A stretch of DNA of 24,803 nt, from positions 1-24,803 of the IMG/VR virus record IMGVR_UViG_3300020420_000056. The stretch is one strand, 5' to 3'. The stretch is from a virus. The notes beneath the pieces were generated by a model. The model was not told where the DNA came from. It was given only the letters and a program-made list of their open reading frames with translations, and did not search any database. Both the position numbers and the translations under genes were made by a program. Positions 21,313 to 23,317 of this stretch are shown here, piece by piece (the first letter of the stretch is position 1; each line of letters opens with the position of its first letter).

Positions 21313-21735
21313 ATGGCGCGGCATTGGCATGTAGACAACGATCACAAACGAGAATGTTTTAAAAAGTTTGTTGATGAGATATGTGAAGAGCATGATTTTG
21401 TTACGTTTATTTGTAAGACTAGCCGACCAAGAACCCCTAAACAACAAGCAGCACTTGAGGTTTACTTTAGAAATGCAGCAGGTATTTTAAATGATGCTGG
21501 TTATTATCATCAACTTAACGCTGAGTTTTTAAGGGATGCTATTGAAATACCTTGGACTCAAGAATCATTTAAAGAGTTTTGGCGATCAATACAGAATACG
21601 ATGTACGGTGTATCATCAACAAAAGACATTGAAGCAGACAAAGTATCTGAGGTCTATGATGCAATTAATTTAGCATTAAGTGAGCGCACAGGTATACATA
21701 TACCCTTCCCATCAAAGTCAATGACAGACGAATGA
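21313..21735 (+). CDS. NinB-like recombination protein (probable)
   Basis: A 140-aa protein, equal in size to lambda NinB (Orf, 146 aa). 'TSRPRTPKQQAALEVYFRNA' corresponds to the 'R...KQ...' N-terminal part of NinB-type proteins. The C-terminal 'KVSEVYDAINLALSERTGIH' followed by 'IPFPS' is a conserved ending in phage proteins at this locus. It directly precedes the NinG-like gene, with which it overlaps by ATGA. NinB modulates recombination by binding SSB-coated single strands; a similar role here is inferred from likeness and context. Confidence 0.6.
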   Translation: MARHWHVDNDHKRECFKKFVDEICEEHDFVTFICKTSRPRTPKQQAALEVYFRNAAGILNDAGYYHQLNAEFLRDAIEIPWTQESFKEFWRSIQNTMYGVSSTKDIEADKVSEVYDAINLALSERTGIHIPFPSKSMTDE

Positions 21736-22145
21736 GTCAGAAACTACGCAAAAAGTGTCTAACTGCACTACAAAAGTTAGCCAGAATATCTGCTGCCGAT
21801 CAATTTGGTATGGTGCAATGCGTATCATGCGAAAAAAAACTGCATTGGAAAGATGCAGATGGCGGCCACTACATAGCTAAAGGAAGCTCATCATACTGGG
21901 CCTTAGAAGTAGAGAACGTGCATCCACAATGTAAAGGCTGTAATTGTTTTGGAATGAGCAAAGGCAGCGCAGAAGGTCAATATACGTTATGGATGATTGA
22001 CATGTATGGTGAAGACTTTGTAAGACAGATGCATCAAGACAAACGCAAGTTAAAAAAGTTATACAAAAAAGACTATGAAGATATGCTGCAACACTTTAAT
22101 GAACTAATTAAATACCATGAACAAAGATTAGCTTGCATTGATTGA
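21732..22145 (+). CDS. ninG: NinG/Rap-like Holliday-junction endonuclease
   Basis: A 137-aa protein with the NinG/Rap pattern: CVSC zinc pair (residues 30-33), 'ADGGHYIAKGSSSYWALEVE' containing the conserved His46, and 'NVHPQCKGCNCF' with the second Cys pair (67/70) in an HNH-like zinc fold. 'YTLWMIDMYGEDFV' and a Lys-rich helical end follow. Lambda Rap cuts branched recombination intermediates. It closes the rightward early operon: a promoter and a terminator follow at once. Confidence 0.85.
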   Translation: MSQKLRKKCLTALQKLARISAADQFGMVQCVSCEKKLHWKDADGGHYIAKGSSSYWALEVENVHPQCKGCNCFGMSKGSAEGQYTLWMIDMYGEDFVRQMHQDKRKLKKLYKKDYEDMLQHFNELIKYHEQRLACID

Positions 22146-22151
22146 TACACG

Positions 22152-22160
22152 TGGTATAAT
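22152..22160 (+). promoter_or_regulatory. Extended -10 promoter after ninG
   Basis: TGGTATAAT is an extended -10 element with a perfect TATAAT (22155-22160). The best -35-like sequence, TTGCAT at 22133-22138 with a 16-bp spacer, is weak, as tolerated by extended -10 promoters. Transcription would begin near 22167, only about 30 bases before the terminator hairpin. Confidence 0.55.
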
Positions 22161-22193
22161 TAAGTTCCTTTTTTAAGGTTGATACCCCCTTTT

Positions 22194-22218
22194 AAAGCCC
22201 CACACAGGGGCTTTTTTT
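22194..22218 (+). terminator. Strong rho-independent terminator
   Basis: AAAGCCCC (22194-22201), loop ACACA and GGGGCTTT (22207-22214) form a perfect 8-bp stem leading into seven T's (22212-22218). It is directional for the plus strand. It ends the rightward early operon and would also stop the short transcript from the promoter just upstream. Confidence 0.88.
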
Positions 22219-22226
22219 GTTATACT
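22218..22226 (+). promoter_or_regulatory. Possible extended -10 element for leaderless expression
   Basis: TGTTATACT is an extended -10-like sequence whose predicted start point lies at or next to the ATG at 22233. The following gene has no Shine-Dalgarno sequence, which would fit a leaderless mRNA. No -35 box is evident. Confidence 0.35.
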
Positions 22227-22232
22227 GAAAAA

Positions 22233-22517
22233 ATGGAAAAGAAAAGTTTACTTAAACGTATCGGTGTATCAGGTTATAACAAGCCAAAACGCACACCAAA
22301 TCATCCTACAAAATCTCACGTTGTTGTTGCAAAATCTGGTAATAAAGTTAAAACTATACGTTTCGGACAGCAAGGAGCTAAGACTGCTGGTAAACCAAAA
22401 GCTGGTGAATCAGATAGGATGAAAAAAAAACGTGCTAGTTTCAAAGCAAGGCATAGAAAAAATATAGCACGAGGTAATATGTCTGCTGCATACTGGGCAA
22501 ACAAAGTTAAATGGTAA
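22233..22517 (+). CDS. Conserved small basic phage protein (DUF6321-like)
   Basis: A 94-aa protein from the ATG at 22233; a frame opening at 22179 would start inside the terminator region. It has about 27 Lys/Arg to 3 Asp/Glu. Blocks 'GVSGYNKPKRTPNHPTKSHV', 'VKTIRFGQQG' and 'SFKARHRKNIARGNMSAAYW' recur nearly unchanged in many marine phages, and I associate them with the DUF6321 family, without certainty. Charge and conserved aromatic end suggest nucleic-acid binding. It is the first of six consecutive basic proteins. Confidence 0.75.
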   Translation: MEKKSLLKRIGVSGYNKPKRTPNHPTKSHVVVAKSGNKVKTIRFGQQGAKTAGKPKAGESDRMKKKRASFKARHRKNIARGNMSAAYWANKVKW

Positions 22518-22530
22518 AAGGAGATTAATC

Positions 22531-22593
22531 ATGCCATATCATAAAGGATCAAAGAGCAAACCAAAGCCAAAGAAAAGTAAGCCAAGGAAGTAA
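22531..22593 (+). CDS. 20-aa Lys-rich micropeptide
   Basis: A 20-codon frame, MPYHKGSKSKPKPKKSKPRK, with nine Lys/Arg and no acidic residue. A strong AAAAGGAGATTAATC leader puts GGAG 7 bases before the ATG, the best ribosome-binding site in this stretch, which is why I accept so short a frame. The start 'MPYHKGS' is seen on other small phage basic proteins, so it may be a remnant or a genuine peptide. Confidence 0.5.
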   Translation: MPYHKGSKSKPKPKKSKPRK

Positions 22594-22594
22594 C

Positions 22595-22768
22595 GTGGCA
22601 AAGGGTACAAAACATTACTTTGCTGATGGCAGAGAGTACACAGGTGGCACTCACAAAATGCCAAATGGTGAAACGCATAGTGGTTCAATGCATACGAGAA
22701 ACAGCAAAAAGTTGTTTCATTTCAAAGACTTATCAGAGAAAGCTAAGAAAAAAGCTATGGGTAAATAA
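22595..22768 (+). CDS. 57-aa small basic protein
   Basis: A frame starting at GTG (22595), one base after the micropeptide stop, encodes MAKGTKHYFADGREYTGGTH, then 'KMPNGETHSGSMHTRNSKKL' and a Lys-rich end. Small proteins with 'DG..YTGGTHKMPNGE.H.G..H...SK.LFH' are conserved in marine phages and unassigned. About 13 Lys/Arg, several His. The preceding ACG/AAG-rich end of the micropeptide serves as its leader, so coupling is likely. Confidence 0.65.
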   Translation: MAKGTKHYFADGREYTGGTHKMPNGETHSGSMHTRNSKKLFHFKDLSEKAKKKAMGK

Positions 22769-22770
22769 CT

Positions 22771-22893
22771 ATGGATATGAAGAAAAAGAAAAAACTTACT
22801 GCACGACAAAGAAAACTCGCAGCTATGTATGGTGACAAAAATAAAATTACTCGCGGTGATGTGATTGCTGCTGCTAGGAAAGGTAAAAAATGA
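22771..22893 (+). CDS. 40-aa small basic protein
   Basis: A 40-codon frame starting MDMKKKKKLTARQRKLAAMY and ending 'RGDVIAAARKGKK', with about 15 Lys/Arg. It begins two bases after the 57-aa gene and its TGA overlaps the next ATG (ATGA). The 'LTARQRKLAAMYGDKNKITR' core looks like a short helix-loop-helix. Similar 'LT.RQ..LA...P...KIT..D..A' pieces occur in small phage proteins; function unknown. Confidence 0.6.
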   Translation: MDMKKKKKLTARQRKLAAMYGDKNKITRGDVIAAARKGKK

Positions 22894-23066
22894 AACATAA
22901 ATCACGTGTCAATGAAGCTGGTAACTACACCAAGCCAAAGATGAGAAAGAGTTTATTTGAAGCTATCAAACGTGGTGGTAAAGGTGGTAGACCTGGGCAA
23001 TGGTCAGCACGTAAAGCACAGATGTTAGCAAAGCAATACAAAGCTAGGGGTGGTGGCTACAGATAA
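22890..23066 (+). CDS. 58-aa conserved small basic protein
   Basis: A 58-codon frame: MKHKSRVNEAGNYTKPKMRK, 'LFEAIKRGGKGGRPGQWSAR', 'KAQMLAKQYKARGGGYR'. About 17 Lys/Arg to 2 acidic. 'RVNEAGNYTKP.MRK' and 'GGKGG.PGQWSARKAQ.LAK.YK..GGGY' are strikingly conserved in many tailed phages of aquatic bacteria, with no known function. Overlaps both neighbours by short start/stop overlaps, showing coupled translation. Confidence 0.75.
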   Translation: MKHKSRVNEAGNYTKPKMRKSLFEAIKRGGKGGRPGQWSARKAQMLAKQYKARGGGYR

Positions 23067-23317
23067 TGTCCCTCAGAAAGCCACAGAAATCGCTTTTAGA
23101 CTGGGGTAAACAAGACTGGGGGACTAAGTCAGGTAAACCATCTACCGTTGGCCCTAAGGCCACAGGAGAGCGTTATCTGCCACGTAGAGCTAGACAGGCA
23201 TTATCATCTCAAGAATATGCAGCGACCAGTAGAAAGAAAAGACGAGACACTAAGGCTGGCAAACAGTTTTCTAAACAACCAAAACGCATATCAAAGAAGA
23301 CAGCCAGGTATCGTTAG
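23066..23317 (+). CDS. 83-aa conserved small basic protein (DUF5872-like)
   Basis: An 83-aa protein, MSLRKPQKSLLDWGKQDWGT, then 'KSGKPS', 'GERYLPRRARQALSSQEYAA' and a basic end 'KQPKRISKKTARYR'. About 25 Lys/Arg to 5 acidic. The 'W..QDWGTKSGK' and 'GERYLP..A..ALS..EYAAT' blocks recall the DUF5872 type found in phages and large DNA viruses; I am not certain of that name. Its start overlaps the previous stop by one base, and its end overlaps the opposing endolysin gene by 4 bases. Confidence 0.75.
   Translation: MSLRKPQKSLLDWGKQDWGTKSGKPSTVGPKATGERYLPRRARQALSSQEYAATSRKKRRDTKAGKQFSKQPKRISKKTARYR

Follow-up and report, generated by a model that had tools for sequence, protein, structure and literature searches.

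The early operon of this phage ends in a compact promoter-terminator-promoter junction, whose second promoter (P2) probably starts a leaderless mRNA of the phrog_7595 gene without read-through or an antiterminator. In the proposed mechanism, transcripts of the early operon and of the first promoter (P1) would end at the terminator, and a sigma-70-type host RNA polymerase would initiate from P2 on the A of the ATG (+1). The resulting leaderless mRNA would encode the phrog_7595 protein and up to five further small proteins, and P2 would need neither read-through nor an antiterminator for its output. P1 may yield an RNA of ~50 nt in the clade of the window or may control P2 through polymerases that pause or end over the P2 -10 region.

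The window, that is, the whole stretch of DNA analyzed (24.8 kb), comes from a podovirus-like phage, probably of marine origin, whose large terminase shares 52% identity with that of the Burkholderia phage BcepC6B. The minus strand carries the head-tail adaptor, head, tail, and internal virion genes (identified by PHROGs), and the plus-strand early block contains an HTH regulator, a replication initiator, and, as its last member, the NinG/Rap-like gene. GTDB genomes were searched for a host with NinG and with the module string, and these searches gave no relative. The junction and its neighborhood comprise the following features.

21732-22145, plus strand: NinG/Rap-like gene, the final early-operon gene ahead of the module (PF05766, E 2e-10)
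22133-22138, plus strand: -35-like element of P1, TTGCAT, weak, with a 16-bp spacer, within the last ninG codons
22152-22160, plus strand: extended -10 of P1, TGGTATAAT, invariant in lineage A while the spacer bases vary
22167-22219, plus strand: predicted short P1 transcript of ~53 nt (CCTTTTTTAAGG...GGGGCTTTTTTT), placed from the -10 position
22194-22218, plus strand: intrinsic terminator, an 8-bp stem (22194-22214) and a T-tract to 22218
22218-22226, plus strand: extended -10 of P2, TGTTATACT, with the final T of the terminator tract as the T of its TG
22227-22232, plus strand: six-base spacer GAAAAA between the P2 -10 and the ATG, fixed in length and variable in sequence among relatives
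22233-22517, plus strand: gene for a 94-aa basic protein (phrog_7595, function unassigned), its mRNA predicted to be leaderless from its own ATG
22532-23317, plus strand: small ORFs (20, 57, 40, 58, and 83 aa) included in the predicted P2 unit

P2 and the predicted leaderless start

On sequence evidence, the early replication/recombination operon ends at the terminator, whose T-tract runs into the extended -10 of P2. As in intrinsic terminators generally, a G+C-rich hairpin, AAAGCCCC-ACACA-GGGGCTTT (22194-22214), is followed by a T-tract, and relatives keep the stem with changed stem sequences. P2 has no recognizable -35 element, the place of which is occupied by the terminator stem, so that P2 would depend wholly on its extended -10. 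In sequence, TGTTATACT has the form of such an element, with TGn directly before a near-consensus -10.

From the end of the P2 -10 (22226) to the ATG that opens the 94-aa gene (22233), the distance is exactly 6 nt. In leaderless promoters the -10 is placed about 6-7 nt from the start codon, such that +1 coincides with it; at the usual spacing, +1 of P2 would be the A of the ATG, leaving neither a leader nor a Shine-Dalgarno sequence. Consistent with this, the 20 bases before the ATG contain only the T-tract, the -10, and the spacer, and no Shine-Dalgarno sequence. A 20-codon basic ORF (MPYHKGSKSKPKPKKSKPRK) lies directly 3' of the 94-aa gene (22532-22594) and is preceded by a clear Shine-Dalgarno sequence, AAAAGGAG; its absence is thus not general in the P2 unit.

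Relatives were gathered by NinG, by the phrog_7595 protein, and by DNA patterns, and their upstream sequences were also printed without a spacing rule. TG[G/T]TATA[A/C]T was found exactly 6 nt before an ATG in all 48 distinct loci that have both a ninG relative and phrog_7595. Forty-five of these were counted directly at 6 nt; for the other three, the count was made from an in-frame TTG 15 nt (five codons) inside the gene, giving 21 nt, and they also have an ATG at 6 nt. The 48 loci represent one phage group, are related, and fall into about seven upstream lineages, denoted here by letters (the window belongs to A). When the sequences were anchored at the ATG, identity at the positions of the T-tract, TG, and -10 was mostly 94-100%, the exceptions being the third base of TGn and the fifth base of the -10, which are tolerated, and identity at each of the six spacer positions was only about 50%.

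The P2 element was absent in 80 of 83 distinct phrog_7595 loci without ninG nearby, indicating that it belongs to the gene junction and not to the gene. Most phrog_7595 relatives found by protein likewise lack the module, which is therefore not simply a companion of the gene. The nearest phrog_7595 genes in named isolates (CRP-1, CRP-603, C72C1, CRP-5, and CRP-13) stand in other gene orders and, where the annotation was read, mostly lie close behind or overlap the preceding gene. In two loci (L086 and L114), a divergent 101-aa homologue (MNR(S/Y)SIRQRRASLLKR...) takes the place of the phrog_7595 gene, and the terminator-P2-six-base junction is unchanged despite this replacement.

We also scanned for CTTTTTTTGTTATAMT with no rule on what follows. 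Among the matches listed, ATG was present at offset 6 in 26 of 131 distinct sites and at any other offset in 0-9 sites. About 22 of these 26 listed sites were members of the phrog_7595 junction family, and the enrichment at offset 6 among the matches listed is therefore not established for unrelated phages; outside the family, about 4 of the listed sites were at offset 6 versus a background of about 2.4 per offset. A general use of terminator-TGTTATAMT-N6-ATG by unrelated phages was not retained, since the enrichment is not clear, though individual examples exist.

If P2 acts as predicted, this would be a very economical way to end one operon and start the next gene: a single T-tract would serve as both the terminator tail and the upstream edge of the promoter, and the mRNA would be leaderless. 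With a 6-base distance that is constant throughout the phage group, a direct and cheap test becomes possible, and the string of T-tract, TGNTATAAT, six bases, and ATG could be used to seek leaderless genes in uncultured phages without a transcriptome.

P1, its predicted short transcript, and its possible role

The earlier note had described an extended -10 promoter and a strong terminator after ninG, and this pair was confirmed (TGGTATAAT, 22152-22160; stem, 22194-22214) and found to be conserved. Its estimate of a transcript of about 50 nt agrees with the ~53 nt predicted here from 22167, an RNA with a predicted fold of -15.2 kcal/mol (z -2.3; z -3.1 for the terminator part alone). The description was incomplete in that the second extended -10, P2 (22218-22226), had been missed.

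TGNTATAMT occurs at two sites in the window on both strands (P1 and P2), compared with 3.75 expected by chance, so that the number of sites alone is uninformative. When the upstream stretch was shuffled, 11 of 300 shuffles scored as high as P1 of the window. Sequence alone is weak evidence for P1, and conservation lifts it above chance. P1 is likely a real promoter, with an RNA that would end at the terminator, although it is less certain than P2.

Across lineages, P1 is kept in non-homologous forms, TTGC[A/T]T-N16-TA[T/G]AAT or TTGACT-N18-TATACT, located upstream with 33-145 nt between its -10 and the terminator stem (3' arm). In lineages A and C (L092/L093/L201), TTGCAT-N16 is combined with a TGn ahead of TA[TG]AAT, lineage B (L085-L091, L095, L114, and L133) has TTGACT-N18-TATACT, and in lineages D, F, and G TTGC[AT]T-N16-TA[GT]AAT overlaps the end of a small ORF; the layout TTGC[AT]T-N16-TA[GT]AAT of the window P1 is found in four other lineages. 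In A and B, the P1 hexamers are invariant and the neighboring bases change. Upstream of the module (within 400 nt), 28 distinct contexts contained TTGC[AT]T-N16-TA[GT]AAT, compared with 9 in the rest of the 2.95 Mb of fetched loci; owing to homology among the D/F/G copies, the 28 are not independent events, and one of the nine is at another terminator of the same phage group. Scored against shuffles, P1 was good in B (0-3 of 300 as high), fair in A, C, and F (9-19 of 300), and poor in several members of D and G.

These data also bear on the rather improbable alternative that P1 is no promoter, the string in D/F/G being the coding end of a small upstream ORF and that in the window a chance match. 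TTGC[AT]T...TA[GT]AAT does overlap a coding end (LLHPNFDV / LHHPSFNVE) in D/F/G, and the single-sequence score of the window P1, given above as 11/300 shuffles, is not extreme. Against this alternative, B and C have different promoter strings at the corresponding place, outside coding sequence and with the same RNA start.

In lineage B (L085-L091, L095, and L133), inverted half-sites CCCCAA(C/G)T and ACTTGGGG lie around and on the P1 -35 and could be the operator of a regulator. Between P1 and the terminator, members of lineage G (L096-L113 and L130) have a short stretch of hypervariable length and sequence, whereas their terminator, P2, and TTGCAT-N16-TAGAAT string are retained.

A functional short RNA, as the earlier note had suggested, would be a ~53-nt small RNA from P1 with the terminator as its 3' end and P2 as a separate promoter, a reading that we hold tentatively and regard as somewhat unlikely. 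P1 sequences differ among A (TGGTATAAT), B (TTGACT-N18-TATACT), and C (TGTTAGAAT), yet the RNA start is kept, and so is much of the RNA in A-C (AAGTCCTTTTTT or AAGTTCCTTTTTT, then ACCCCCTTTT..GCCCC); the invariant hexamers with variable flanks in A and B also fit this reading. However, A-C may share this RNA simply because the segment has a recent common ancestor, and a search of Rfam gave no family above the cut-off, only sub-threshold chance matches. The P1-terminator stretches of D, F, and G bear no likeness to one another, and the -10-to-stem distance varies from 33 to 145 nt. The RNA expected of a small RNA gene, with its own promoter and terminator, is conserved in A-C only. A conserved small RNA is therefore arguable for A-C, and the suggestion is weak for the wider group.

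Transcriptional interference is possible though doubtful: polymerases from P1 and the early operon that pause and terminate on the T-tract, also the upstream edge of P2, would hold P2 down until P1 or early transcription is shut off. The terminator T-tract overlaps the TG motif of P2, and does so in every relative with the module, and a promoter-like element lies upstream in most lineages. This reading is purely architectural, and in the D sub-lineages L116, L122, and L123 no good P1 was found within about 100 nt, although in L127 one lies at a distance of 116 nt. We consider it unlikely that P1 and early-operon transcription, ending on the shared T-tract, physically gates P2 so that phrog_7595 would be on only when early transcription stops; if true, such gating would be an antiterminator-free handover from early to late expression.

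Comparison with the lambda late switch and known leaderless genes

Because promoter and terminator come after ninG, the earlier note had likened them to the lambda PR' target of Q, with the downstream genes switched on late by an antiterminator. In such a switch, a Q-like antiterminator would load at P1 and read through the terminator, which we consider very improbable. Searches with PF06530 and PF03589 gave no match in 13 records (the window and 12 related contigs, all partial) with controls working; PF06323 also matched none of the 13 partial records but is uninformative, as it matched no control either. The 85-aa HTH protein, which had been put forward as a Q candidate, had no antiterminator match; its identity drops to about 40%, across part of the protein, in D and G, and it was not detected in lineage F, which keeps the module.

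Gene order also argues against a Q switch. There are no lysis or structural genes downstream on the P1 strand, and behind the phrog_7595 gene every lineage read has no more than a few small ORFs, beyond which lie convergent endolysin and late genes. In the window, the small-ORF run (22532-23317) stops against a convergent endolysin gene (endolysin by PHROG). No terminator was found between this minus-strand gene and the last small plus-strand ORF, and the two overlap by 4 bases tail to tail (23314-23317). Moreover, read-through RNA would put the terminator hairpin directly before an ATG that has no Shine-Dalgarno sequence. P2, a promoter of the downstream genes' own behind the terminator, would make Q antitermination unnecessary. 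As the 13 partial records gave no match to PF06530 or PF03589, the late genes are convergent, and P2 lies behind the terminator, Q antitermination was rejected, and the likeness to the PR'/Q target is not supported.

The junction resembles lambda PR'-tR' in having a promoter and then an intrinsic terminator behind a nin-type gene. The two differ in that no Q was found in the 13 partial records and no late genes lie behind the terminator in the module, whereas in lambda the lysis genes come after PR' and Q is directly before the promoter. The module terminator is about 30 nt from the start site, with a further promoter directly behind it; that of lambda is much further from its promoter. As to the Q-binding element and the sigma-dependent promoter-proximal pause of such a switch, inspection by eye showed a weak TAAGGT/TAAGAT/TATGAT near +8 in lineages A/B/C.

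The predicted leaderless unit of P2 resembles lambda PRM-cI, a known leaderless mRNA: in both, a sigma-70-type -10 ends 6 nt before the ATG, with no room for a Shine-Dalgarno sequence. Unlike PRM, P2 is an extended -10 without a -35 and is joined to the terminator that closes the preceding operon, and its gene, phrog_7595, is not a known repressor. A -10 box lying about 12 bp ahead of the start codon is the published mark of leaderless genes in bacteria and is shared by the TA-led genes (Zheng et al., 2011; PMC3160421); that description concerned bacterial genomes and not a phage element fused to a terminator. A literature search for phage leaderless/terminator fusions found nothing specific.
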